A DNA stretch of 64,000 nucleotides from Spirochaeta africana DSM 8902 (GTDB lineage Bacteria > Spirochaetota > Spirochaetia > DSM-27196 > DSM-8902), in NCBI RefSeq assembly GCF_000242595.2, contig NC_017098.1:248001-312000 (forward strand). Direction: 5' to 3'. Positions 3,514-63,412 of the stretch are shown here, one piece after another. Made by a program: the position numbers and the translations under genes. The notes under the pieces were generated by a model, which searched no databases, had not been told where the DNA came from, and was given only the letters and a program-made list of their open reading frames with translations. Position 1 is the stretch's first letter. Every line of letters starts with the position of its first letter.

Positions 3514-6507
3514 ATGAGAACCATCATTACGGCTGCACTTGCGTTGCTGCTGATTACCGTGCCCGTTGGATCCGGGCTGGCAGCCCGGGCTAATGCGGCA
3601 GAGAGCCTGTTTTCTCAGCCAAGCTCGCCACTGCCGGCTGCAGCCCATGCGCAGACGGCAGTGGGCCCGACGCCAGAATTCCAGGGGCACCTGCAGCTGG
3701 AGACCGAACACACACGGATTATCTACGAACCGCATGCCGCCGCCGCAGCACTGGAGGTGGCCGGTTTTGCCGATGAGGTGTTCCTCCAGGTCTCCGGACT
3801 GCTGGGGTATGCCCCGCCCGAGCGGGTGCCGGTGGTTATTACCGACCGCACCGCCCTTGCCAACGGGTTTTACAGCCCGCTGCCCCACCGTATTACCCTG
3901 TTCGTTACCAGCCCGGCCGATCGTTTCCTCGGTTCCCGTACCGAAAGCTGGCTGCGTACCCTCTACACCCATGAACTGGTGCACTACATTCATCTTACCG
4001 AGCGTATTGGCATGCCCGGCCTGCTTTCGCATGTGTTCGGCCATGATCTGACTGCGGCCAACGTGGTGCTGATGCCGCTGTGGTGGATTGAGGGGATCGC
4101 GGTGTATGCGGAAACTGCCCTGGAGCCGGGCGGCAGGGGGGATTCACCGCTGTTTGCCCTTCGCTATCGTGCGCCGCTGGTCGCAGACCGCATGTGGCAC
4201 CGCCACCAGCTGCGCTATGCATCGGCCTTTCCGCCGCCGGATCGGGCGTACATCGGCGGGTATCTGCTGGTAAACTATCTTGTCGAACGATTCGGTGAGC
4301 CGGTAATCCGGGACATCAATCAGCGGTTTGTGCGGTTCCCCCTGGGCGGGATCGGTCCGGCGATCTACTCGGTTACCGGCGAGAGCTTCGCCGATCTCTA
4401 TGCCGGTATGGTTGATTCCTTGGCCGCCGATGAGCCTGCCGGCAGCGGGGCAATCGGATCCCCCGGAGGAGAGCGGATCCTGCCGCATACAGTGGGTCTG
4501 GTTCAGCTGCCCTTCAGTACCCGCCAGGGGGCGTTTGGCTACGTCCGCAGTCAGAACAGCGCCGGTGAATGGGTCGAGTATGATATTCAGGATGGTGAGT
4601 TTCACCCGGTGCGCCGCTTTCCGATTGGCCGACTCAGCGATGAGCTGTCCATATCGGCTGCACCCGACGGGAAGCACGCGGTATTTGCCCAGGTTGTTCA
4701 TAATCTCTCGCATCCGGCCGGGCAGACAATGACACCGGTTGGCTACTCTGATATCTATCTGCTTGATCATAGCGATGGCAGCGTGCGACAGCTAACCCAT
4801 GGACGGCGACTGTATCAGCCGGCCATCGGCGGGGATGTGGTGGTGGCCCTGGAGATGGTCGGCCAGTTCTACCGGCTGGTGCAGATTGATCCCGCGAGCG
4901 GGGAGGTGGAACCGTTGTACCAGCCGCCGGGCGGCAGCCTCTACGAACCCCAGGTGAGCGCCGACGGTGACCAGGTACTGGCAGTGCGAATTGTCGGCGG
5001 GCAGAGCTCGCTTGTCCGGGTAGATATGGCCACACGTGATGTCGAGAAGCTCCTGCCGGCAGGGCCGGCCGGGATCTATCGGCCGCGATTCGGACACGAC
5101 GACTCGGTGATTTTCTCTTCTGACCGCTCCGGCCGCCTGCAGCTGTATCGTATTCGGCTGGATGACGATACACCGACGGTGGAACTGCTGTTGCAGGATG
5201 TGCTCGGCGTTATTGGCGGGCAGTACCACCAGGGGTATCTGCTGTACGGAAGCTACCGGGTTGAGGGCAGTACCGCGACTGCCCTCCCGGTTGATAGGGT
5301 CGCGGCAGTCCAGGTTGCATGGCTGCCGTCCGGTGCCGATAATCGCCCTGACAGCCTTCACACCCCTGTCAGCCCGGACCACCCGGGCAACCCCGGCAGA
5401 TTGGACATTCCTGGTAACCCTGCAGAAGCGCCTCCCGGGGAATATCTTCCTGCCGGTGACCTGCCGCACCGTGACCTTCAGGATACCGCCCGTCAGTATC
5501 GCGACCTGCCCCGTCCGGGTTTCTGGCTGCCGCTGCCGCGACTGTACACCGACGGGAACGACACCATCGGTATGGCGCCGGGGATGTTCTGGCTGTTGCA
5601 GAGCGTTCTGGGTCGGCATTCACTGCAGGGGACCCTGGACTACCATCTTGCCGATGCCGAGTTGAGTATCGGGGTGGAGTACCGCCAGTTCCGGGCCTGG
5701 GGGAGCGCCGGGATTTCCGCCGCAAGCCGGTATCTGCAGAGCAGCGGTGCAGAGCAGAGCGACGAATTGCAGTGGCTCCGGCAGAATACCGTGGGGGCAC
5801 AGGTGTCCCGCGTGGTATGGAGCCGGCGACGCCTGAACTGGAACTATGCCGTGCAGGGAGGGCTTGCTGCAGCCTATACCGGCTATCCCGGCGGCGAGCT
5901 GCCGCAGTCGCTGGCAGCCCTGGGCCGGCTGCAGTATGCCGCTGCCGAGCAGGCCCCGCCAGCGGCCTTCTTCGGCTTGCGTCGGGCTGGCCTGCATGCC
6001 GGGATGCGTACCGAGGCACCGCTTGATGGCGGGCAGCAGCTGCGTGTGCTGCCATCGGCGGGCGGATTGATCCAGCTGCCGGTGCCCTGGGGATTCCAGG
6101 TGGTACGGCTCGAGCTTGATGCGATGTTTACTTCGTACGGCAGCCTGTCCGGTGCCCTGCTGCCGCGCGGCGAACCGCAGTGGGAGAGTCTGTCGGCTCC
6201 CGCCAAGCTGCGGGGCGGGATATGGTATCGACTGCCTTTGGGGCTCTATGACCGGTGGATTCCCTATGGCGGGCTGGCAGGTGCCGGGGCAAGCCTGTTC
6301 GTGCAGTCGGCCTGGTACCTGGACTCACCATCGCAGCTGGCCTGGGAGGAGAGGCTGTATGCGGGGGGCGAACTGGCGCTGGATCTGCGAATGCTGCTGT
6401 CGGTCGGAGTTCGTCCTGCACTGGGGGTGGTGTTTCGGGTGGATCCGGCCCGTGGGGGGATAGATCCGGGGGAGGATGTTCATCTGTATCTGGATCTGGT
6501 TCTGTGA
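3514..6507 (+). CDS. Exported zinc metallopeptidase-like protein with beta-propeller and possible beta-barrel
   Basis: 997 residues. A Sec signal peptide (about 1-29, ending AARANA) is followed by a gluzincin-type peptidase domain. The zinc motif HELVH is at residues 153-157, and WWIEGIAVY at 190-198 supplies the likely third ligand Glu193. Residues of about 320-600 look like TolB/WD40-type propeller blades (SADGDQVLAV, FSSDRSGRLQLYRI). A Pro/Gly-rich linker (about 610-655) precedes about 300 residues of alternating hydrophobic strands resembling an outer-membrane barrel. The likely job is processing or binding of envelope proteins; the substrate is unknown. An extended -10 box (TGcTATTTT, 3497-3505) lies eight bases before the start. 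The sensor kinase gene follows after 12 bases. Confidence 0.7.
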   Translation: MRTIITAALALLLITVPVGSGLAARANAAESLFSQPSSPLPAAAHAQTAVGPTPEFQGHLQLETEHTRIIYEPHAAAAALEVAGFADEVFLQVSGLLGYAPPERVPVVITDRTALANGFYSPLPHRITLFVTSPADRFLGSRTESWLRTLYTHELVHYIHLTERIGMPGLLSHVFGHDLTAANVVLMPLWWIEGIAVYAETALEPGGRGDSPLFALRYRAPLVADRMWHRHQLRYASAFPPPDRAYIGGYLLVNYLVERFGEPVIRDINQRFVRFPLGGIGPAIYSVTGESFADLYAGMVDSLAADEPAGSGAIGSPGGERILPHTVGLVQLPFSTRQGAFGYVRSQNSAGEWVEYDIQDGEFHPVRRFPIGRLSDELSISAAPDGKHAVFAQVVHNLSHPAGQTMTPVGYSDIYLLDHSDGSVRQLTHGRRLYQPAIGGDVVVALEMVGQFYRLVQIDPASGEVEPLYQPPGGSLYEPQVSADGDQVLAVRIVGGQSSLVRVDMATRDVEKLLPAGPAGIYRPRFGHDDSVIFSSDRSGRLQLYRIRLDDDTPTVELLLQDVLGVIGGQYHQGYLLYGSYRVEGSTATALPVDRVAAVQVAWLPSGADNRPDSLHTPVSPDHPGNPGRLDIPGNPAEAPPGEYLPAGDLPHRDLQDTARQYRDLPRPGFWLPLPRLYTDGNDTIGMAPGMFWLLQSVLGRHSLQGTLDYHLADAELSIGVEYRQFRAWGSAGISAASRYLQSSGAEQSDELQWLRQNTVGAQVSRVVWSRRRLNWNYAVQGGLAAAYTGYPGGELPQSLAALGRLQYAAAEQAPPAAFFGLRRAGLHAGMRTEAPLDGGQQLRVLPSAGGLIQLPVPWGFQVVRLELDAMFTSYGSLSGALLPRGEPQWESLSAPAKLRGGIWYRLPLGLYDRWIPYGGLAGAGASLFVQSAWYLDSPSQLAWEERLYAGGELALDLRMLLSVGVRPALGVVFRVDPARGGIDPGEDVHLYLDLVL

Positions 6508-6519
6508 TAGGCTGATGCC

Positions 6520-8979
6520 ATGAAGGCTGTTACGCTTCCGCCAGGGTTTCCCGTACGGCTCGCCGGTGCACTGATTCTGGCAGTGCTGGGCCTGTTCGGC
6601 AATCTGCTGGCAGTAGATCTGTTTTTTTCGATTGATTTTCTGCTTGGCGGCATTTTCGCCATGCTTGCCCTGCTGGTACTGGGCCCCGGCTGGGGGATTG
6701 CGGTAGCTGCGGTGGCGTCGCTGGCGACCTACAGCCTCTGGCAGCACCCCTACGCGATCGTGGTGTTCACTGCCGAGGCGGTTTTTGTTGGCCTGCTGCT
6801 GCGCAGACGTGCGGCCTGGCTGTTTACCCTCGACATTCTTTACTGGGTCAGCCTGGGGGCTGCCCAGATCTTCCTGTTCTATCATCTGGTGATGGGGATC
6901 GATCTCCAGGGCACGGTATTGATCGCGCTGAAACAGGGGGTGAACGGGATATTTAATGCCTTTGTTGCGGTCGTGCTGGTACTGATGCTACAGTTGTTAT
7001 ACAAGCGCCGGCGGCGACCATTGCTGGGGCGACATCACCTGCGCGCTATGCTGCAGCTGCTGGTGGTAGGGTTTGTTCTGATTCCCCTGCTGCTGGAGGT
7101 GGTGGTAACCGGGCGTGATGAATTCAGCTCAATCGAGAATGAAATAGCCGCACGTGTGCAGTATCAGCTGCGCGGCAGCAGGGTTCTCCTGGAACAGAAT
7201 ATTCTCAGTAGAGAGCGTCAGCTGCAGCGGTTTTCCCGGCAGCTGCATGAGGATTTCGAACTGAGTCAGGGAGATCAGGCCGATAGCGCTGCAGAGTGGT
7301 TTCTCGCCGTGCATAGCGACTTCGTGCGACTCGAGATCGAATCAGCCGCGGGCTATATTGGCGGGGCCGAACGCTCAGCTGCCGGGGAACAGCCGACGAT
7401 CGGGATAACCGCCGGACTGGAATCTCCGGAGGGCCAGGTCTATCGCCTTACCGGATATATGCAACCGGAGCGCATCATGCCGGCACAGCTGCCGGGGGCG
7501 GATGGTTCCGGGCTGTTGCTGCTTGATGCCCATGGCCGGGTCCTGGGTTCGGTTGGCGATGAACTCCCGGAGGAGCTGGCTGCCCGGGCCGCCGGCAAGG
7601 CCGGCAACCCTGGGCAGCATCTGCTGGCCCCCGCGCTGGCGCCGAATGTGTCGGTCATGGATCGCTGGCGGAGCAGCTATTTCGCCGCAGTGGAGCCCGT
7701 CGGTCAGGACATCAGTACGCCAATGTATGCCCTGTTCTACATTGCGGCCGAGGGCTACCGTAACCGCCTGTACGCCAGCTATATCCGCCTGTTTTCCATG
7801 CTGGCGGGCCTGCTGCTTTTGAGTATCCTGCTGGCATCGGCGATTACGCAGCGCTTCTTCCGTTCACTGCGTGCGATCAACGCCGTGGCCCGGGACTTGC
7901 CGGCAAGGATAGCTGCCGATCAGGAGGTCTCCTGGCCCAGCAGCATTATCCTGGAGTTTGAGGAAATCTCGGATAATTTCCATCAGGCCGGCAGCAAGAT
8001 TCGCACGATGTTTCAACAGCAGCGACAGCTCAATCGCGAACTGGAAGAGGCGCGACAGGCGGCCGAGGCCTCCAGTCGGGCCAAGAGCGAGTTTATTGCA
8101 GGCATGAGCCATGAGTTGCGTACCCCGCTGAATGCGATACTCGGGTACGCTCAGCTGCTGCGGCGCAGTGAATCCTCCGCCGAGGATCTGGACGAGATCG
8201 GCAGGGTGATCAGCTCCAGCGGGCAACATCTGCTTCGCCTTATCAATGATATCCTGCAGTATGCCGGCTCGAATATCGAGGAAATGCCGCTGGAGTATCG
8301 CCTTATCCACATTCATGACCTGGTCAAGGATCTGGAACTGATGTTTCAGGTAAAGGCGAGGCAGAAAGGAGTGGAACTGATCACCCGGGTGGACCCGGCA
8401 ATCAGGATGCAGGTGCATCTGCCCGAGCGGGCGGTGACCCAGATACTGGTAAACCTGTTGAATAATGCGCTGCAGCACGCCGCCAGCGGCCGGGTAGAGT
8501 TGTCTGCGGAAAAGCTGACGGACGGGCTGCTGTTCCGGGTACATGACACCGGCAACGGCATTCCGGTAGAAGAGCAGGAGCGGGTATTCCAGCCGTTTTA
8601 CCAGATCGGTGCCGTGCAGACCAAGCATGACGGGATCGGTCTGGGGCTGGCTATCTGCCGGCGGCTGGCGCGGGCCTTTGGCAGTGACATCGAGCTGGTG
8701 AGCACCCCTGGAGAGGGCACCGAGTTTTCCTTCCGGGTGCCGCTGCAGCAACCCACGGCAGCGGGTGCTGCAGCCGGCGGGCAGCTGCCGGAATGGCTGC
8801 GCATTGCATTGCTGGAAGAGGCCAGAAAAGGCGACATCGCCGGGATCGAGGCCCTGCTGGAGCAACATGTAGCTACAGATCCGCACCTTCAGGATTTCTC
8901 CCGGCAGGTTAAGCGACTGCTGGACTCCTTTGCCGTGGATGAGCTGGTCGAGCTGCTGCAGCCGCCTACTTCTGGGTAA
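6520..8979 (+). CDS. Membrane sensor histidine kinase
   Basis: 819 residues. Residues 1-165 form a multi-pass membrane module of about six helices, like MASE-type sensors. Another helix (about 185-202), an extracytoplasmic region (about 203-423) and a last helix (about 424-446) follow. A coiled linker leads into the HisKA domain with phospho-accepting His531 in MSHELRTPLN. The ATPase domain shows the N box (NLLNNALQHA, near 645) and the G boxes DTGNGIP and GIGLGLAI. A helical tail of about 70 residues after the ATPase domain is unassigned. No response regulator is adjacent, so the partner is unknown. Its 3' end overlaps the convergent cyclase gene by 14 bases. Confidence 0.88.
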   Translation: MKAVTLPPGFPVRLAGALILAVLGLFGNLLAVDLFFSIDFLLGGIFAMLALLVLGPGWGIAVAAVASLATYSLWQHPYAIVVFTAEAVFVGLLLRRRAAWLFTLDILYWVSLGAAQIFLFYHLVMGIDLQGTVLIALKQGVNGIFNAFVAVVLVLMLQLLYKRRRRPLLGRHHLRAMLQLLVVGFVLIPLLLEVVVTGRDEFSSIENEIAARVQYQLRGSRVLLEQNILSRERQLQRFSRQLHEDFELSQGDQADSAAEWFLAVHSDFVRLEIESAAGYIGGAERSAAGEQPTIGITAGLESPEGQVYRLTGYMQPERIMPAQLPGADGSGLLLLDAHGRVLGSVGDELPEELAARAAGKAGNPGQHLLAPALAPNVSVMDRWRSSYFAAVEPVGQDISTPMYALFYIAAEGYRNRLYASYIRLFSMLAGLLLLSILLASAITQRFFRSLRAINAVARDLPARIAADQEVSWPSSIILEFEEISDNFHQAGSKIRTMFQQQRQLNRELEEARQAAEASSRAKSEFIAGMSHELRTPLNAILGYAQLLRRSESSAEDLDEIGRVISSSGQHLLRLINDILQYAGSNIEEMPLEYRLIHIHDLVKDLELMFQVKARQKGVELITRVDPAIRMQVHLPERAVTQILVNLLNNALQHAASGRVELSAEKLTDGLLFRVHDTGNGIPVEEQERVFQPFYQIGAVQTKHDGIGLGLAICRRLARAFGSDIELVSTPGEGTEFSFRVPLQQPTAAGAAAGGQLPEWLRIALLEEARKGDIAGIEALLEQHVATDPHLQDFSRQVKRLLDSFAVDELVELLQPPTSG

Positions 8980-11698
8980 GGGAGAATACCCCGTCCCAGT
9001 TGGCCGGTGGCGGGTTATCTAGGAACTTCCGGCAGCGCTCCAGATAGGTCCGGCTCGGGCCGTCGTCCGGGAACTCCTCCAGGGTTGCGCTGAACTGCTG
9101 CATGGCGGCGTGAAACTGCGCCTTTTCAAACAGCTCCAGGCCCTGTTCAAATCCGTTCAGCAGGGCAGCGGTACCGTCTGCAGCAGAGAGGATCTCGTAC
9201 AGTCTGACCGGTTCATTCACCCCGACAACCCTGACCCGGTCCAGACGGCGCCACACAAAAGCGGCTGGTTCCTGACTGCTCCCATCCGCGATCTGATCAA
9301 TGGTGCTCTGGCTTGCCAGAATCCAGCTGCTGTACTGTTTGTTCACTCCTTCCAGTCGGGCCGCAAGATTTACGTTGTGTCCCATCATGGTGTAGTCCAT
9401 CTTGCGTTCGGTGCCCATGTTGCCGACTACCATCTCACCGCTGTTCATCCCGATCCGGGTCAATAGCGGGCCGGGTGATATCCCCTCCTGCTCGAACTGT
9501 CGGTTAAGCTCGCGTTCCATCTGTTTCATGCGGGCTGAGGCCAGACAGGCGCGATAGGCATGGTCGGGTACATCAAGAGGTGCGCCGAAAAACGCAATAA
9601 TCGCATCCCCTTCGTACTTGTCGATGGTGCCACCCAGCTCAAGTATGATATCGCTCATGGCCGACAGGTAGCGGTTCAGCAGGGTTACCAGATCCTGGGG
9701 ATCCATCTGTTCGGAGATGGTGGAGAACCCCTTCACATCGGTAAACAGGGCTGTCATCTCGCGCTTCTCACCCCCCAGGTTCAGGCGTGAAGGGTCATTG
9801 ATAATCTCACGCACAACATCCTGGGAAAGATAGCGCGAAAATGCTCCGCTGATGTAGCGTTTCTCGCTCTCGGTAAGGTAGAACTTGAACAGTGAGAGCG
9901 CAATGAACACGGACCCGATGCTGAACAGGATCACCACCGGCCGCAGATACCAGCCACCAAACACAAACAGTGCCCACACCGCAACCGTAACCGCAATCAG
10001 CATGCTGATGCCCAGAATGATGGTCCGCCGTGCAGATGTGTTGCGAACCAGCCAGCCGATCAGCAGTGACAGCAGCAGGGCCGTCAGGATGGAAACGATA
10101 TATGGCAGCTCGATCAAAAAATCTCGCTGCAGGATGGTGTTGGCTACGGCTGCGTGGGTACCAACGTTCATGTACCGCTCATCAAAAGGGTTAACCCCGA
10201 TATCGGTTGTTGATATCCCGGTCCAGCCGATTATGATGAACGAGTCATTAAGTTCCTGCAGCAGTTCAGCCCGTCGCTGCAGCAGATCCCCGGCGACCTC
10301 GGCCGTAGCATTGAACTGCTCGATTATCTCTTCCCGGGTTTCCTGGTAAAACAGCCGATCATCATCTGCAAGGTTTTCCGAGGCGAGGATCCGGTCAATC
10401 TGTGCCAGCAATGGTTCAATCGTAGCAGTCTGAAAGACCTCCTCTACGGCCATGAACCAGTAGGCCCGCTCCTCCAGATAGAGTTCGTACAGATCCCGGT
10501 CTGCCTGTGCAAACATCTCCTCGCGCAGCTGCTGGATTTCGCGATACCAGGGCAGCAGCTCCATGCCCAGTTCATGACCGGTCAGAAAACGGGCCTCGGT
10601 CAGCTGTTCGATATTGAACACCAGATCGCTTTCAAACTGATCAAGGGTGTATATTCGCGAATAGCTGAGCTGGCGAAAGGTGTCGTCAAATCCCCGCGGC
10701 GGCCAGGTTATCAGCATCCGCCCGTCGGTTGAGCGGGGAATGCGTACATTGCGGGTGGAGCCGTCGGGGTAGCTGGCGCCGCGCAGCAGGATGCTGCGGT
10801 CGCGTACCACAACCTCGGGATTGCCCAGGTAGTCCAGCAACGGGCGAAAGGCCAGCTGTCCGAAAATCTGCCGGCCGTCTCCCTGTACCAGATCGATCCG
10901 GCGGCGAACCCCGTCGGGATCGACCGGCACGTTCGGAAACCCGGCCCCGACCGCATTGCGGCCAATCGGTTCGATTACCGGCTGGATGGCGTTCCCGCTC
11001 GGGTAGTTTTCCGTCTCCAGGATCAGGTTCGGGATGCCGAAATTCTCCCGGGCAAAGGCTGCAGCCGCCTCGGTGCCGGGCAGGGCCTGATCCTCCGCAT
11101 CCAGGATGGTGTTGGTATAGTACGCGCGCCCGAACAGTCCGGCAGCGGTGCCGTGGTAGCGGTCGTTGTCTCTGGCGATCGCCCGTGCGGTTTCCAGCAG
11201 ACGATCCCGATGACTGCGGGTCAGGTCGCCCAGCTCGAAGATAAAATCCTCGGCATCCGCCAGCGGGATCATTTCCTGCTGCAGGGCGAAGAACAGCTGC
11301 TCGGTCTGGTTCTGGATATCGGCAAAGCTGTCGTTCAACACCCGCGGGAACTCCTCGTTCAGTACCTCGGGTGCTACCCCCATCGGGCTGGGATCGATGT
11401 ACTCGATATCGAAAATCGCCGCCGCCGCGCCGAATTCGCCCAGGCGCAGCAGACCGTCCGCGAGGATGCTGCGGCTCCAGGGCCAGGTGCCGACCCTGGA
11501 GATGGCATCATCGTCAACGTTCAGCAGCAGAACCCTGGGGCTCTCCGGCACCGCTGGCCTGAGGCCGAGCAGCTGATCGTAAAAGGTAAAATCAATGTAG
11601 CGAAAGCGTGGTATCAGCAACAGGGCCGAGAATACCACTGGTACAGCCAGGGCGATGCCGATTTGAATAAGTCTGTGTCTACGCATATGAATTTCCAT
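8966..11698 (-). CDS. CHASE2-domain class III adenylate cyclase
   Basis: 910-residue membrane enzyme predicted to make cAMP from ATP. After an N-terminal helix comes a periplasmic CHASE2 sensor (hallmarks FTFYDQLLGLRP and a GTWPWSR segment), to about residue 510. Three membrane helices and a class III cyclase domain follow. The metal-binding Asp654 lies in FTDVKGFS. Lys694 (DKYEGDAII) and Asp768 (MDYTMMG) are the pair that selects adenine over guanine, and the catalytic Asn/Arg are in NLAARLE. The C-terminus has a TPR-like helical repeat. It diverges from a predicted outer-membrane/FecR pair, and CHASE2 cyclases and FecR-type proteins are often neighbours in other bacteria. The signal sensed is unknown. 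Confidence 0.93.
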   Translation of the reverse strand: MEIHMRRHRLIQIGIALAVPVVFSALLLIPRFRYIDFTFYDQLLGLRPAVPESPRVLLLNVDDDAISRVGTWPWSRSILADGLLRLGEFGAAAAIFDIEYIDPSPMGVAPEVLNEEFPRVLNDSFADIQNQTEQLFFALQQEMIPLADAEDFIFELGDLTRSHRDRLLETARAIARDNDRYHGTAAGLFGRAYYTNTILDAEDQALPGTEAAAAFARENFGIPNLILETENYPSGNAIQPVIEPIGRNAVGAGFPNVPVDPDGVRRRIDLVQGDGRQIFGQLAFRPLLDYLGNPEVVVRDRSILLRGASYPDGSTRNVRIPRSTDGRMLITWPPRGFDDTFRQLSYSRIYTLDQFESDLVFNIEQLTEARFLTGHELGMELLPWYREIQQLREEMFAQADRDLYELYLEERAYWFMAVEEVFQTATIEPLLAQIDRILASENLADDDRLFYQETREEIIEQFNATAEVAGDLLQRRAELLQELNDSFIIIGWTGISTTDIGVNPFDERYMNVGTHAAVANTILQRDFLIELPYIVSILTALLLSLLIGWLVRNTSARRTIILGISMLIAVTVAVWALFVFGGWYLRPVVILFSIGSVFIALSLFKFYLTESEKRYISGAFSRYLSQDVVREIINDPSRLNLGGEKREMTALFTDVKGFSTISEQMDPQDLVTLLNRYLSAMSDIILELGGTIDKYEGDAIIAFFGAPLDVPDHAYRACLASARMKQMERELNRQFEQEGISPGPLLTRIGMNSGEMVVGNMGTERKMDYTMMGHNVNLAARLEGVNKQYSSWILASQSTIDQIADGSSQEPAAFVWRRLDRVRVVGVNEPVRLYEILSAADGTAALLNGFEQGLELFEKAQFHAAMQQFSATLEEFPDDGPSRTYLERCRKFLDNPPPANWDGVFSLTQK

Positions 11699-11759: not shown

Positions 11760-13010
11760 ATGGAGAGTATGCAAATGACAGGAAAAATTCTTTTCGCCAT
11801 AACGCTGATACTCGGGTTGGCAGTCCCGGTGACCGGGCTGGATTTCGGGTTTACCATTGATTCGGCCACCGGTGTCCGGCAGGGTGCCGAATCGGATGCG
11901 AAGCTATCCCATGCCGATACCATCAGCTTCTGGGGTGTTCGTCATCAGGGTGATTCCCCGGTTGGCTTCGTCTGGCGCGCCTGGTATCGCTATTCGCTGG
12001 ATCGACCGGTCGCATTCGAGCTTGATGAGCTCTACCTGACCGCCCGGATTGGGGGTGACAGCGCCGAAACGGCCATCCGTGCCGGCAGGTTCACCCACCG
12101 TGACTGGGGAGGGACGGTGTTCAATCACCCGCAGGATGGGGTGCGTGCAACGATCTCGGCAGGACCGGCAGATATTCGTCTCATGACCGGGACCACGGCC
12201 TTGATTGCCGGTCACCGTTCAACGATTTTTCTTTCCAGCCTGGATGAGGAGAACCGTGACGCGACCTTTGGCAGCCCTCGGGTGGTTTCGGGTCTCGGGC
12301 TGCGCCTGCCTTCGATTCTGCCTGGTTTTACCCCGACCCTGGAGGGAATCGCCCAGTTCGAGGTTCGGCCGGATGATGATGTCGCGTACAATAGCCAGTA
12401 TCTGACCCTGCGGCTTGATCAGGCGGTGGGCGGATCACTGAGTGCCGAAACCCTGGGTACGCTTATGCTGGCTCAAGACAACGACGGGGGCGTCGAAAAT
12501 AAAATCCTCGGCCACTATGCTCATGCAGGGCTGCAGTATGTTCGCCCCGAGTTGTCCGGACTGAGTCTGGGGCTGCGCGGCTGGCATGCCAGCGGTATCT
12601 CCGGGCCGCCGCGGGAGGTTGGTGAGTATCTGGTGGGCAGTTTTCAGCCGATCAGCATCCATCGGGTGGCCTCGGTTATCCCGGTGCCGGTTGGCGGCAC
12701 CATGGGGGGGCGGCTTCGCGCATCGGTAAAGCCGTTCGGGGAGTCCGCAGCGGTCTGGCTGCAGGAGACCCAGCTCAGCAGCCATGTAACCCCCCTGCTG
12801 CGGTCCACCGATCTGGTGGTACCGGTAGAGCAGGTCGATCCCGATTCTGATGACCTGTACCTGGGAACCGAGATTGGCGCGGGCTTCGAGATGCGACCGG
12901 CACCGGATTTTGGTCTGAGAATAGGCGGCGGGGTGTTCCTGCCGGGAGCAGCGATGGCCGATTCGTCGGTACGCTGGCAGGTATCGACAAATCTGTCGGT
13001 AACATTCTAG
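11760..13010 (+). CDS. Predicted outer-membrane beta-barrel protein
   Basis: 416 residues, no family recognised. A signal peptide ends near residue 24 (LAVPVTG). The rest is dominated by short alternating polar/hydrophobic strands separated by Gly/Asp turns, and the chain ends in Phe (STNLSVTF), the usual signature of barrels inserted by BamA. The start is ambiguous because ATG codons at 11760, 11769 and 11775 all lie close to a GAGGATGGAG purine stretch. The FecR-domain gene follows after 23 bases, so the two are probably co-transcribed. A TATACT box at about 11739-11744 could serve as the -10 element. Confidence 0.6.
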   Translation: MESMQMTGKILFAITLILGLAVPVTGLDFGFTIDSATGVRQGAESDAKLSHADTISFWGVRHQGDSPVGFVWRAWYRYSLDRPVAFELDELYLTARIGGDSAETAIRAGRFTHRDWGGTVFNHPQDGVRATISAGPADIRLMTGTTALIAGHRSTIFLSSLDEENRDATFGSPRVVSGLGLRLPSILPGFTPTLEGIAQFEVRPDDDVAYNSQYLTLRLDQAVGGSLSAETLGTLMLAQDNDGGVENKILGHYAHAGLQYVRPELSGLSLGLRGWHASGISGPPREVGEYLVGSFQPISIHRVASVIPVPVGGTMGGRLRASVKPFGESAAVWLQETQLSSHVTPLLRSTDLVVPVEQVDPDSDDLYLGTEIGAGFEMRPAPDFGLRIGGGVFLPGAAMADSSVRWQVSTNLSVTF

Positions 13011-54708: not shown

Positions 54709-56139
54709 CTACATGCGTCGTGAAACCCCGATGTAGAATTCGGTGCGGAGTATATCAACCTCGGGATTGCTGGTTATCATGCCGGCGATCATGAGCCCCA
54801 TTTCCAGGGCTGAGCGCTCGGAGAAATTCACCGATACCCCGGGGCCAGCCATCAGCCCGAAACCGAATACCAGACCGTCCTCGGTCTCCACAGGCAAGGT
54901 CTCCTCTGCCAGCCACTCGACCGGGCCGATAGCAACCGCCGGGCCAAGATTCAAAAACAGTTCGACTGCCCACAGCCTGACCTGCGGGCGCAGCAGCGTT
55001 GCCAGTTCCAGGCTGTAGTAGGTGTAGATCCGGCTTTCGATTTCCTCCGCGATAAAATCGAGCTCGTTACGCCCAAGCACCAGGTCGGTCTGAAAACCCA
55101 GGAACCGGAATACATCAAATGTCAGGCGGCCGCGCAGGGTAAATGATTTATACTCACGGTTATATGGCTGGTCGGGCTCTTCGATCTCGATTGGCACCGA
55201 TACCCCCAGCCCGGCCCCGATCCTGGTGCGTCGGTTCGGTTCGGTGTCGGCTTCAGGCGCTTCCGGTTCTTCCGGGGGAGCGGTGGCCGCGCGGGCACGG
55301 CGATCCTGGTCGAAGCGGGAGCGCAGTTCCTGGTAGCGATCGCGTTGTGCTGCCAGGTCGGTGGAGTAGGAAACGTCGGCCAGCAGGAACTCCAGGCGTT
55401 CAAACAGGCTGATCACCCGATCGGCTGCTGCCGGGTCGTCCCAGTTGGCGGTGATCTCTTCCTCAATGCCAAGCAGTACGCGCCGCTCATCCGGTGTCAG
55501 CAGTGGCAGCTCGAAACTGATGCTGATAGTTTCTCCTTCGCGCACCGTGACGGTTTGCTCGTGCAGGGTTACCGAGGTCAGCATGCGATCCTGCCGGATG
55601 GCAATCTCGCGCTCCCCGGTCAGGATGCGCGACTGGTCCTGGGGCAGGGGGCGGCCGTCTACCAGCACCTCGTACGAACCCGGACGCCCGGTGTTGCGCA
55701 GTGCCAGCTCGCCAAAGCGGATTACCTCGCCGCTCAGGGCTTCCATCAGTTCGATGGCTGCCTCCTCGGCGGCATCGAACAACTCGAAAACCGACTCGAT
55801 CCGGCGTTCAAAGGACGATGTTACCTCCTGTTCAGCCCGCGAAAAGACCGCGAGACTGATCACGGTGGCGGCGGCCTCCTCCTGAACCCGGCCATAGACC
55901 AGAAAGTCGTTCTCGGCGATGGTTCGGGCAGCCGTGTCATCATCGGCTCCGGCAACCCGAACCAGGCGGTAGCCGTCCAGCTGGTTCAGGATCATCTCCA
56001 GGGTACGGGTTGTGTGCTGTGCAATCGACTGTGAGCGGGAACTGTCGTCGGCATGCAGCGGGGCTATGGCGGTACGCACCTCTGCCGCAGGGACCGCCGC
56101 CACCAGAAAGGTCAATGCCAGTACCCATAGTGTCCTCAT
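54709..56139 (-). CDS. Exported protein with outer-membrane-like C-terminal domain
   Basis: 476 residues, unrecognised family. The signal peptide ends about residue 19 (AAVPAAE). The N-terminal half contains an alpha/beta region (RTLEMILNQLDGYRLVRV) and a PEGA-like strand segment (GSYEVLVDGRPL, SRILTGEREIAI). A helical, possibly coiled section follows. The last 150 residues are alternating strands like a small barrel (RLWAVELFLNLGPAVAIG). The extended -10 box TGGTATAAT overlaps the fabH stop; AGGGGG precedes ATG 56139 by eight bases. Confidence 0.6.
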   Translation of the reverse strand: MRTLWVLALTFLVAAVPAAEVRTAIAPLHADDSSRSQSIAQHTTRTLEMILNQLDGYRLVRVAGADDDTAARTIAENDFLVYGRVQEEAAATVISLAVFSRAEQEVTSSFERRIESVFELFDAAEEAAIELMEALSGEVIRFGELALRNTGRPGSYEVLVDGRPLPQDQSRILTGEREIAIRQDRMLTSVTLHEQTVTVREGETISISFELPLLTPDERRVLLGIEEEITANWDDPAAADRVISLFERLEFLLADVSYSTDLAAQRDRYQELRSRFDQDRRARAATAPPEEPEAPEADTEPNRRTRIGAGLGVSVPIEIEEPDQPYNREYKSFTLRGRLTFDVFRFLGFQTDLVLGRNELDFIAEEIESRIYTYYSLELATLLRPQVRLWAVELFLNLGPAVAIGPVEWLAEETLPVETEDGLVFGFGLMAGPGVSVNFSERSALEMGLMIAGMITSNPEVDILRTEFYIGVSRRM

Positions 56140-56160
56140 GCTCGCTACCCCCTGGTACTG

Positions 56161-56169
56161 ATTATACCA
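56161..56169 (-). promoter_or_regulatory. Extended -10 promoter at the end of fabH
   Basis: Minus strand TGGTATAAT: a perfect TATAAT plus the TG extension, no -35 match. It overlaps the fabH stop codon and lies 21 bases before ATG 56139. Confidence 0.6.
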
Positions 56170-57202
56170 CAGTGCGCAGCAGATTGCCGCCGTAGGTGAG
56201 CCCGGCGCCAAATCCTACCGTGATGATGTTCTGTCCCGGCTTGAGCATGCCGGCAGCGGCCATTTCGTTCATTGCAATCGGTATGGATGCTGCCGAGGTG
56301 TTGGCGTACTCGGCAATGTTGCTGTACATCTGTTCGACCGGGTACTTCAGGCGGCGGGCGGCAGCCTCCAGGATGCGGGCGTTTGCCTGATGCGGGATTA
56401 CCCAGTCGAGTTCCGCCAGGCTGAGTCCATTGCGGGTCAGCAGTTCCTGGATTACCTCGCCGATTGCGCCGACCGCAAAATTGTATACCTTTCTGCCGTC
56501 CATCTGTAAAAACTGGTCCGCGCCAAAGTTATCCCCCGGGTTGACTGGTCGTCTGGTGCCGCCGGCCGGACGTACCAGTGCCTGTGCATCGCTGCCGCGG
56601 GATTTCAGTACGGAGTCCAGAACCCGGGCACGGGGGAATCGGGGAGCGGTGTTTCCTGCTGATTCGGGCAGTGACTCCACCACTACGGCGCCGGCTCCGT
56701 CACCGAACAGCACACAGGTGCTGCGGTCCGACCAGTCGACCACCCTGCTGTAGATCTCGGCGCCTATCACCAGAATACGTCGCGCGGAACCTGAGCGGGC
56801 AAAGGCCCGGGCGGTCTCCAGGGCATACACAAAACCGGAGCACACCGCGGCAACATCCATCGCTGCGGCATTGGTGGCCCCCAGCAGATCCTGCACCACA
56901 CAGGCCGTGGAGGGCAGGCCGTTGTAGTCTGGTGATGAGGTAGCTACCAGTATCAGGTCGATGTCCAGCGGGGTCAGCCCGGCATCCGCAAGGGCCTGGC
57001 GGGCAGCGGCGGCGCCGAGGTCGCTGGTCGCCTGATCCTCGGCAGCAATATGCCGGTTGTGAATCCCGGTTTTGGAGAATATCCATTCGTCGGAGGTATC
57101 CAGAAATCCGGCCAGCTCGTCGTTGGACATGCGACGAGGCGGTACATAGGCCCCTGCGCCGGTGATTACTGCTTCCTGAAGCTCGGTGTGTTTGCTGTGC
57201 AC
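56162..57202 (-). CDS. fabH: 3-oxoacyl-ACP synthase III
   Basis: 346 residues. FabH condenses acetyl-CoA (or branched starter) with malonyl-ACP to begin fatty-acid synthesis. The Cys-His-Asn triad is present: AAVCSGFVY, IPHQANARI and YANTSAASIP. GTG 57202 is chosen because TCCTCC on the plus strand (GGAGGA on minus) lies just upstream. An in-frame ATG at 57253 has no ribosome site, though it may be near a promoter. It is divergent from fabD-fabG-fabF across 141 bases. Confidence 0.95.
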   Translation of the reverse strand: MHSKHTELQEAVITGAGAYVPPRRMSNDELAGFLDTSDEWIFSKTGIHNRHIAAEDQATSDLGAAAARQALADAGLTPLDIDLILVATSSPDYNGLPSTACVVQDLLGATNAAAMDVAAVCSGFVYALETARAFARSGSARRILVIGAEIYSRVVDWSDRSTCVLFGDGAGAVVVESLPESAGNTAPRFPRARVLDSVLKSRGSDAQALVRPAGGTRRPVNPGDNFGADQFLQMDGRKVYNFAVGAIGEVIQELLTRNGLSLAELDWVIPHQANARILEAAARRLKYPVEQMYSNIAEYANTSAASIPIAMNEMAAAGMLKPGQNIITVGFGAGLTYGGNLLRTVV

Positions 57203-60539: not shown

Positions 60540-62807
60540 CTAAAAATGATGGCCGAGCGAGACTACCGTGCGCAGCCGTACGCCGGTGCGCACCGCGGTT
60601 TCGATCTGCAGTGCACCGATCGGGGTATCCACCCCGAGGCCAACACCGACCGCCCAGAGCATCTCCGGTTCCTCCCTGTCCTCTGCACCCGGCAGCAGCC
60701 GCGAAATGTCTGCTGTACTGGCCAGGCCGAAGCCGCCTCGCCAACTGGCGTACACCCGGTTATGCAGAAGTGGCGGCAAGGACGGCAACTGCCAGTAATG
60801 ACCGCCACCAAGCAGGGTGATCTGACGCCGCTGCAGTTCATGCCGGTAATAGCCGGGGAAATCCTCGCGCCCGCCGACCCATCGGCTGTCCCACAGCGGG
60901 GGCTGGGTATCCAGGGCGGAGGTACCGCGAAAGCGCCAGCTCAGGGTATGGCGTGAAGTCAGCGGCAGATAACGGCGGTAGTCAATATCCAGCACCTGGT
61001 AGTCCGACACGTCGCTGCTGAGCGAGAAGGAGCGAGAGTAGTACGCTGATCCATGGACACCCCGAGAGGGAAACGGAAACCGGTCCAGGGTATCCAGCTC
61101 GACCCCGGTCAGTATGCCGGTGAACCAGCCGTCGAGGGCAGGCAAGGAGACCTCCTGCCGGTATACCGGGGACTGCCGGAACCAGCCCGATCGAACTGCC
61201 GCCCGCAGGTTCATTGCCCCGAGAATCTCGTGCTGCAGGCCGATTCGGGCCATGCCCAGATCGGTCACGTAGCGTTCGGCAGGGTTGTCGGTTTCATGCA
61301 GGGTGTGCTGCAGGCGTCGGTAGTCCAGACCCGCGTTGGCCTGCAACCCCCGTATGACCGGCTGGTGATACTCCAGCATGCTGTGTAGGTTTTGCCCCAG
61401 GCGCAGTTCCAGTTCCAGACGGGATCCGCGGGTGAGCAGATTGATGGCGGTCAGATGTACTGCAGCGGTAAACTCTTCTTCCTGCAGCTTGCCGAAATGC
61501 GATTCATACCCGATGCCAAGCCGGACATAGTTGTAGGGCTCCTGCAGAGGTTCAAAATGGAGCGCCAGCACCGCCTGCTCTCCGGATATCTGCAGCAGCT
61601 GATACTCGATGGAACGGTAGCCGGCCTCGTTGGTAACCGCGTCGGCAATGGAGTGAATCTGTTCAATGTTCATCGCACGGTTCAGAGGAAACCGGCTGCG
61701 GATTCTCCGGGCATGACCGGGATAGGCCCCGTATATGCGCACCTCCTGCAGGCTGACCCGGCGCGGCCACGGCACCGCAGGGGTGGTGTGCGGGATCGAC
61801 CGGTCCTGTGGGTTCTGCGTATAGTATTGCGGTGTACGCAGTTCATCTGACAGCTGCTGAAGCTCGGCCTGATGCTGCTGTGCCGCTTCCCGGCCGCGCT
61901 CAATGAGCTCTGCCGCCGAGCCAAAACTTGCCGGGGTATACCCGTCAACCGCGGGGCGCAGCATAATATCCGCCAGTTCGTGTTTGCCGGTACTGGTGCG
62001 ATGTATCACCAGGTTAACCGTTTGGGTAAGCACATCGGCGATTCCCAGGATGTTTTCACTCTCCAGCAAGGGAACCTGGAGGTCAACCGCGATTACAATA
62101 TCTGCCCCGAGTTCCCTGGCGGTATCAATCGGGAGGTTGTTTACCAGGCCGCCGTCGACCAGCAGTCGTCCATCCATCTCTACGGTGTCGAATACACCCG
62201 GCACCGCCATGGACGCCCGCATAGCCAGCGCCAGATTTCCGGCGCCCAGCACCACCTCTTCCCCGGTCTCCAGGTCGGCCGCGATGGCGCGGAAGCGTGT
62301 CGGCAGTGCATCAAAATCCTGTTCGCCGCGATATTCCGAGGTAAGCAGGCGCAACAGATTGCTGATCCTGTTACCGCTGATCATCCCCGGGGTTAGGAGG
62401 CTGCCGCCGGCCTCAAAGTCGGCCTGGGCAAGATATGCGATACCATCGCTGTGCTCCTGAAACCGCGTGCGAACCCGCGGCGGCGGTTCGGCAAACAGCT
62501 CGATCCAGTCAACCGATTCCACGATCTCCTGCAGATCCGCAGCACGGTAGCCGATGCTGTACAGCCCGCCGGCGATAGCACCCATGCTGGTACCGACTAC
62601 CATATCGACCGGGATGCCAAGCTCCTCGATCATCTCCAGTACCCCGATGTGGGCAAAGCCCAGGGCACCGCCACCTGCCAGCACCACCGCGACGGTTGGC
62701 CGTGGCGTCTGTTCCCGGGAGTCGGTGAATGCCGGTGGTGTGGCGAGGCAGATACACAGCAGTGCGGCACCGCAGCGCCTGATGGCCCGGGAATGTAATC
62801 CGTTCAT
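60540..62807 (-). CDS. Patatin-like phospholipase with BamA-type barrel (type Vd autotransporter)
   Basis: 755 residues. After a signal peptide (to about residue 28) comes a patatin domain (about 37-330) with oxyanion loop GGGALG, catalytic Ser74 (GTSMG) and Asp218 (VDGG). A POTRA-like domain (about 385-460) and an outer-membrane barrel to the end (VVSLGHHF) follow. The order matches Pseudomonas PlpD, where the barrel exports the lipase to the surface. It probably hydrolyses phospholipids outside the cell or in the outer leaflet. Start 62807 has GGAGGGG. It is divergent from a small barrel gene. Confidence 0.9.
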   Translation of the reverse strand: MNGLHSRAIRRCGAALLCICLATPPAFTDSREQTPRPTVAVVLAGGGALGFAHIGVLEMIEELGIPVDMVVGTSMGAIAGGLYSIGYRAADLQEIVESVDWIELFAEPPPRVRTRFQEHSDGIAYLAQADFEAGGSLLTPGMISGNRISNLLRLLTSEYRGEQDFDALPTRFRAIAADLETGEEVVLGAGNLALAMRASMAVPGVFDTVEMDGRLLVDGGLVNNLPIDTARELGADIVIAVDLQVPLLESENILGIADVLTQTVNLVIHRTSTGKHELADIMLRPAVDGYTPASFGSAAELIERGREAAQQHQAELQQLSDELRTPQYYTQNPQDRSIPHTTPAVPWPRRVSLQEVRIYGAYPGHARRIRSRFPLNRAMNIEQIHSIADAVTNEAGYRSIEYQLLQISGEQAVLALHFEPLQEPYNYVRLGIGYESHFGKLQEEEFTAAVHLTAINLLTRGSRLELELRLGQNLHSMLEYHQPVIRGLQANAGLDYRRLQHTLHETDNPAERYVTDLGMARIGLQHEILGAMNLRAAVRSGWFRQSPVYRQEVSLPALDGWFTGILTGVELDTLDRFPFPSRGVHGSAYYSRSFSLSSDVSDYQVLDIDYRRYLPLTSRHTLSWRFRGTSALDTQPPLWDSRWVGGREDFPGYYRHELQRRQITLLGGGHYWQLPSLPPLLHNRVYASWRGGFGLASTADISRLLPGAEDREEPEMLWAVGVGLGVDTPIGALQIETAVRTGVRLRTVVSLGHHF

Positions 62808-62873
62808 AGCCCCTCCGTCCGGCAAGAGTAGCGCTCTGCTGCAAGAAAGTACAGTAAATCCTGCTGTCATAGC

Positions 62874-62902
62874 TGTACACAAGCTGTGGAAATTCCGATA
62901 AT
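62874..62902 (+). promoter_or_regulatory. Promoter of the small barrel gene, leaderless spacing
   Basis: TGTACA (62874-62879), 17-bp spacer, GATAAT (62897-62902), then six bases to ATG 62909. Confidence 0.5.
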
Positions 62903-62908
62903 CATGGC

Positions 62909-63412
62909 ATGAAGCGAACAACAATACTGGCATCACTGGTACTTCTGCTTGCCGGACCTGTCGGCATTTCGGCGACCTCTTTCTCGGCCGGTCTGGGAAT
63001 GGATTTCCTGAATTATGAACGCCCGTACCTCTCGACCCATCTGGCCTACATCGGTGAGCTGGCCGAGAATGTGGAGATGGAGCTTGGCGGAACCTTTGGC
63101 ATTGTAGTGGAGGACCAGGAACCTGGCTTCTTTCTGCCGTTGCAGCTGGGTCTGGGGTTTGTATTTCCCGATCTTCCCGGTGTTGATGGTATCCTGGGGG
63201 TTGGTGCCTCTCCGGCGTTCAACTGGGGAGTAGGGGTGGATGACTTCCGGTTCTATCTGGGACCGTATCTCAAAGCCGGGGTTCGGGTGCCGGTACACCC
63301 GTTTATGCGCTGGTACCTGGAGGTACAGCAGAACCTGCATATCGGTCCCCCGCAGTGGATAAATACCTCGACCCGGGTTATGACCGGGATCAACTTTCAT
63401 TTCGGAAATTAG
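62909..63412 (+). CDS. Small outer-membrane beta-barrel-like protein
   Basis: 167 residues, unrecognised. The signal peptide ends about residue 22 (GPVGISA). Eight or so alternating strands follow with Gly/aromatic girdles (MELGGTFGIVVE, LQLGLGFVFPD, FRFYLGPYLKAGVRV), resembling a small barrel. The chain ends INFHFGN rather than in Phe. It is leaderless by promoter position and divergent from the patatin. Confidence 0.6.
   Translation: MKRTTILASLVLLLAGPVGISATSFSAGLGMDFLNYERPYLSTHLAYIGELAENVEMELGGTFGIVVEDQEPGFFLPLQLGLGFVFPDLPGVDGILGVGASPAFNWGVGVDDFRFYLGPYLKAGVRVPVHPFMRWYLEVQQNLHIGPPQWINTSTRVMTGINFHFGN

Follow-up and report, generated by a model that had tools for sequence, protein, structure and literature searches.

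What would a spirochaete do with a zinc peptidase, a β-propeller and an outer-membrane barrel in a single exported protein? The question is raised by an open reading frame at 3514-6507 (+) of the window (the whole stretch of 64,000 nucleotides of Spirochaeta africana DSM 8902 that was analysed; source genome of 3.29 Mb, single contig), which encodes a product of 997 aa. A sequence-only reading of this DNA had proposed such an architecture, and the present analysis indicates that the peptidase, propeller and barrel very probably do occur in this order in one chain. The protein is considered here, on balance, to be a periplasm-facing outer-membrane protease for processing or quality control.

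Gene and genomic neighbourhood

The protein begins with a signal-peptide-like stretch, MRTIITAALALLLITVPVGSGLAARANA (judged by eye), in which residues 1-28 (3514..3597, +) were assigned by eye to a signal peptide with cleavage near ANA-AES. When the window protein alone was searched against Pfam, NCBIfam and PDB sequences, none of the three domains gave a match above cut-off.

A permease-like gene immediately precedes the frame, and a histidine kinase gene (6520-8979, +) starts 12 bases past its stop codon; co-transcription of the frame and the kinase gene is possible in this genome. Among 15 homologous regions, no conserved partner gene of the family was found and the histidine kinase pairing was not kept elsewhere, so the neighbours give no hint at a substrate or client.

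Other genes of the window encode an adenylate/guanylate-cyclase-like protein (8966-11698, -), the N-terminal part of which is judged by eye to be extracytoplasmic, a porin-like exported barrel protein adjoining it (11760-13010, +), and an exported protein that ends, by eye, in a small barrel-like region (54709-56211, -).

The zinc peptidase domain

Residues 57-306 (3682..4431, +) were assigned to a gluzincin-type zinc peptidase domain from the family profile, an AF2 model and VIA-align comparisons. Conservation was counted in 82 family sequences aligned over this domain, 81 of which have letters at the catalytic columns. H153, E154, H157, E193 and R208 are invariant (81/81), E200 is found in 80 of 80 letters, and Y246 in 80 of the 81 homologues, the remaining one carrying Trp. 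The HELVH motif (residues 153-157, 3970..3984, +; alignment of homologues) and the predicted third zinc ligand Glu193 (in PLWWIEG, 4090..4092, +; alignment and AF2 model) lie where the sequence-only reading had placed them, and their conservation in all 81 sequences argues against a chance motif. As judged from the alignment, the zinc site (HExxH plus downstream Glu) is complete, conserved and of the gluzincin type, clan MA(E).

Modelled alone (AF2, residues 52-312), the domain reached pTM 0.75 and pLDDT 73; the helix bearing Glu193 (189-203) comes after the region of the HELVH helix. VIA-align matched the model to lugdulysin (M30) with Z 15.7 over 226 residues and to M1 aminopeptidases and M9 collagenases with Z about 13; 7edx_B, a chain of the TFIID complex, was also among the structural matches. 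In the model, the domain has a gluzincin fold. It shares this fold and the HExxH plus Glu zinc site with lugdulysin and the M1 and M9 enzymes, but identity is 8-16% over the aligned fold, and these enzymes have no propeller or barrel behind their peptidase. The lugdulysin of entry 7bb9 carries the substitutions E242Q and Y315F, the second of which suggests a Tyr as proton donor in that enzyme; Tyr246 (4249..4251, +) is a candidate proton donor in the window protein.

Pfam matches to the domain were below cut-off: PF13485 (Peptidase_MA_2; curated cut-off 32.4 bits) gave 17.2 bits in the window protein and 24.9 in the KSB1 homologue L033, and PF01752 matched the window protein below its Pfam cut-off. 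One homologue (L019, G039:C220) carries a tandem duplication of ~34 residues within the peptidase domain, perhaps an assembly artefact.

The propeller

The TolB-like β-propeller covers residues about 330-600 (4501..5313, +). TIGR02800, the NCBIfam TolB model, matched in a single stretch (473-551) with E 1.7e-8, and the family profile matched solved TolB structures with E 1e-24. The propeller was well modelled when AF2 was run on the full length of five sequences (the window protein and four related loci), and it was aligned to a TolB structure by VIA-align with Z 21.6 and 3.0 A over 240 residues at 337-599. These three comparisons uphold the TolB-like blades proposed earlier, and in the models the propeller fold is TolB-like. 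The likeness to TolB is one of fold; TolB is a soluble periplasmic protein, and the window protein scores far below the equivalog cut-off (33.9 vs 343 bits).

The predicted C-terminal barrel

A proline-rich linker of about 60 residues (about 601-659, 5314..5490, +; from the sequence) separates the propeller from residues about 660-997 (5491..6504, +), which were assigned to an Omp85-type outer-membrane barrel by hhalign. Structure prediction, which modelled the peptidase and the propeller, gave only pLDDT 20-40 for residues 598-997 in the five full-length sequences, and a crude strand scan, bearing on the 16 strands of an Omp85 barrel, did not distinguish the C-terminus from the protein's own peptidase domain. 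Neither PF01103 nor a Pfam POTRA domain matched the window protein at E<=1, and among the PF01103 matches listed for 61 related genomes none fell at a locus of the family.

For the C-terminal analysis, 59 further homologues were collected across the phylum. Ten of the 61 C-termini scanned (a set that includes L034, the Gemmatimonadales homologue) matched PF01103 at E<=1, and three full-length homologues from the same phylum exceeded the Omp85 cut-off of 24 bits: L111 (30.0), L105 (31.8) and L090 (24.6), each of which has PD40 and HEYTH besides Omp85. LRGY, EYRFPL and SAG.ELH-type segments are conserved among the aligned Omp85-positive homologues. To this group, hhalign aligned the C-terminal profile of the branch that includes the window protein with a score of 64.4 (E 7.4e-8, 318 columns), or 55.0 over 317 columns when the KSB1 sequence was removed; the window protein with its four closest relatives alone scored 35.7 over 302 columns. 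The highest decoy scores were 17.7 (60 column-shuffled), 24.4 (40 block-shuffled) and 16.7 (reversed alignment).

Searched against the PDB, the profile of the Omp85-positive group had BamA as its best match, with only E 0.059. No hhalign match was obtained with the five other Omp85 barrels of the genome (loosely aligned), with L034 alone or with unrelated barrels. One further hhalign match was discarded, as the profile involved already contained L034, and L033 and L034 were misaligned in the barrel-only alignment.

Because same-phylum homologues that share its domain order pass the Pfam Omp85 cut-off and the branch profile aligns to theirs, the C-terminus is, by transitive homology, a divergent Omp85 barrel with no detectable POTRA domain. 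The earlier description of a barrel-like C-terminus is thus confirmed by homology to Omp85 barrels, and this region is not more propeller; confidence in the structural model of the barrel is low.

Distribution across genomes

Matches to the peptidase profile were found in 204 of 296 genomes sampled from the phylum (apparently spirochaetes) and in 173 of the 254 high-quality ones, mostly one per genome and in frames of 900-1100 aa; those genomes that were listed for f26, a family with small genomes, had no match. The homologous loci include Sphaerochaeta and Spirochaetaceae. HELTH is kept in a treponeme-like genome of 1.14 Mb, where the full-length treponeme-branch profile matches over 483 residues, with no separate match for the C-terminus. 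The same domain order, found in L111, L105 and L090 within the phylum, recurs outside it at two loci: L034 (Gemmatimonadales), with HELVH, PD40 and Omp85 at 42.8 bits, and L033 (KSB1), the barrel of which was recognised by eye and alignment only. No homologue was found in the viral contigs searched. The frame around one homologue (L114, G118:C1:69775-70572) stays open for 2142 aa; it may encode a longer fusion or be open by chance.

Comparison with known systems

PF00149, which we take to be the metallophosphoesterase family, has no match at E<=1 in the window protein. In the sections consulted of the 2014 survey, the 'Metallo' Omp85 group rests on this family, there termed a metalloprotease domain (PMC4104836), and the window protein falls outside that group. 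The WD40-Omp85 proteins defined by Heinz and Lithgow in 2014 are closer: according to the same sections, their propeller is most like TolB and is followed by a C-terminal Omp85 barrel (PMC4104836), and the window protein too has a TolB-like propeller N-terminal to an Omp85-type barrel. Unlike the window protein, however, they are described with no N-terminal zinc peptidase in the main text consulted, where spirochaetes are unnamed and the word "peptidase" is absent (PMC4104836), and the barrel of the window branch is itself too divergent for the Pfam Omp85 model. As some Omp85 subfamilies, including WD40-Omp85, are reported there to have non-POTRA N-termini (PMC4104836, sections consulted), the absence of POTRA is not decisive for membership. 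The earlier remark on the lack of a named family with this order needs qualifying: no characterised protein was found to combine a zinc protease with a TolB-like propeller and an Omp85 barrel, but WD40-Omp85, as defined in those sections, already combines the last two (PMC4104836).

PlpD and other patatin-Omp85 proteins also join an enzyme domain, which is periplasmic, to an Omp85 barrel in one chain; in the window protein, the zinc peptidase and propeller take the place of their patatin and POTRA domains. The window also encodes, at 60540-62936 (-), a PlpD-like protein that is patatin-like and ends in an Omp85 barrel (PF01103, 40.1 bits), and two enzyme-bearing Omp85 proteins (3514-6507 and 60540-62936) therefore lie within one 64-kb window.

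BepA is a separate soluble M48 protein with TPR repeats and, unlike the peptidase of the window protein, is not fused. With the BAM complex of E. coli, it offers a parallel, in the part of the source consulted, of a zinc metallopeptidase that acts at the outer membrane next to an Omp85 protein (PMC8423444).

Proposed function and topology

N-terminal domains of Omp85-superfamily barrels are located in the periplasm. The enzyme domain of PlpD, an Omp85 relative, also stays periplasmic (PMC11116518). Both observations make a periplasmic placement of the peptidase likelier; of the "periplasmic or external face" suggested earlier, the external alternative is thus the less likely one, and the idea that a protease is tethered to the outer membrane is supported by the predicted Omp85-type barrel. 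The protein would be exported by Sec and then inserted into the outer membrane by BamA, the barrel serving as an anchor whose N-terminus points into the periplasm. This would keep the peptidase and propeller on the periplasmic side of the outer membrane, where substrates or partners may dock on the propeller, as on those of TolB and BamB, and the peptidase may cleave proteins as they reach the membrane or when they become lodged in it, as a step of maturation or quality control. By analogy, the most likely role would resemble that of BepA beside BamA, but in one chain.

The barrel could instead insert or export a client as BamA or FhaC do, with the peptidase trimming the client en route. Every Omp85 protein investigated before PlpD has a role in assembly or translocation (PMC11116518), and WD40-Omp85 has been compared to a BamA-BamB fusion in the sections consulted (PMC4104836); PlpD nevertheless shows that the Omp85 scaffold can be used otherwise. 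We regard such a machine as rather unlikely here: no POTRA domain was detected by Pfam at E<=1, the RGF/Y-type motif of the Omp85-positive group (R272-G273) is represented by a weak PRG at 884-886, and no client gene is linked in the 15 homologous regions. A separate BamA-type protein with POTRA-like repeats (L035; by eye) is also present, so an assembly machine would be an extra one. The broader proposal that a protease fused to a BamB/TolB-like platform and an Omp85 barrel serves across the phylum as a machine coupling client insertion or export to cleavage appears unlikely.

Two further readings concern the enzyme itself. Gluzincin folds include non-peptidase members, and no linked gene points to a substrate; the fold might therefore serve in peptidoglycan peptide cleavage, or purely in binding, rather than in protein proteolysis. 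The full conservation of HExxH and Glu193, with near-full Tyr246, argues for catalysis, and a non-proteolytic role is judged decidedly improbable. It is very improbable that the enzyme domain crosses the outer membrane to act outside the cell in nutrition or attack, as was suggested, in the sections consulted of the 2014 survey, for other Omp85 proteins with enzyme domains (PMC4104836): the membrane would have to let through a peptidase of 250 residues as well as a propeller, the equivalent proposal was disproved for PlpD (PMC11116518), and phylum-wide, mostly single-copy presence better fits housekeeping. The preferred reading remains that of a periplasm-facing protease.

Significance

Each of the three domains is known; their fusion and its breadth across the phylum are unusual. 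In a 2021 survey of modelled outer-membrane proteins of Treponema pallidum, propeller, WD40 and metalloprotease are absent from the main text (PMC8407342). With this family, a zinc protease would join the enzyme domains already known from Omp85 barrels. How spirochaete outer membranes are built and maintained is poorly known, and a conserved, mostly single-copy, anchored protease, its HExxH site complete in the 1.14-Mb treponeme-like genome as well, would be a testable candidate for outer-membrane protein processing.
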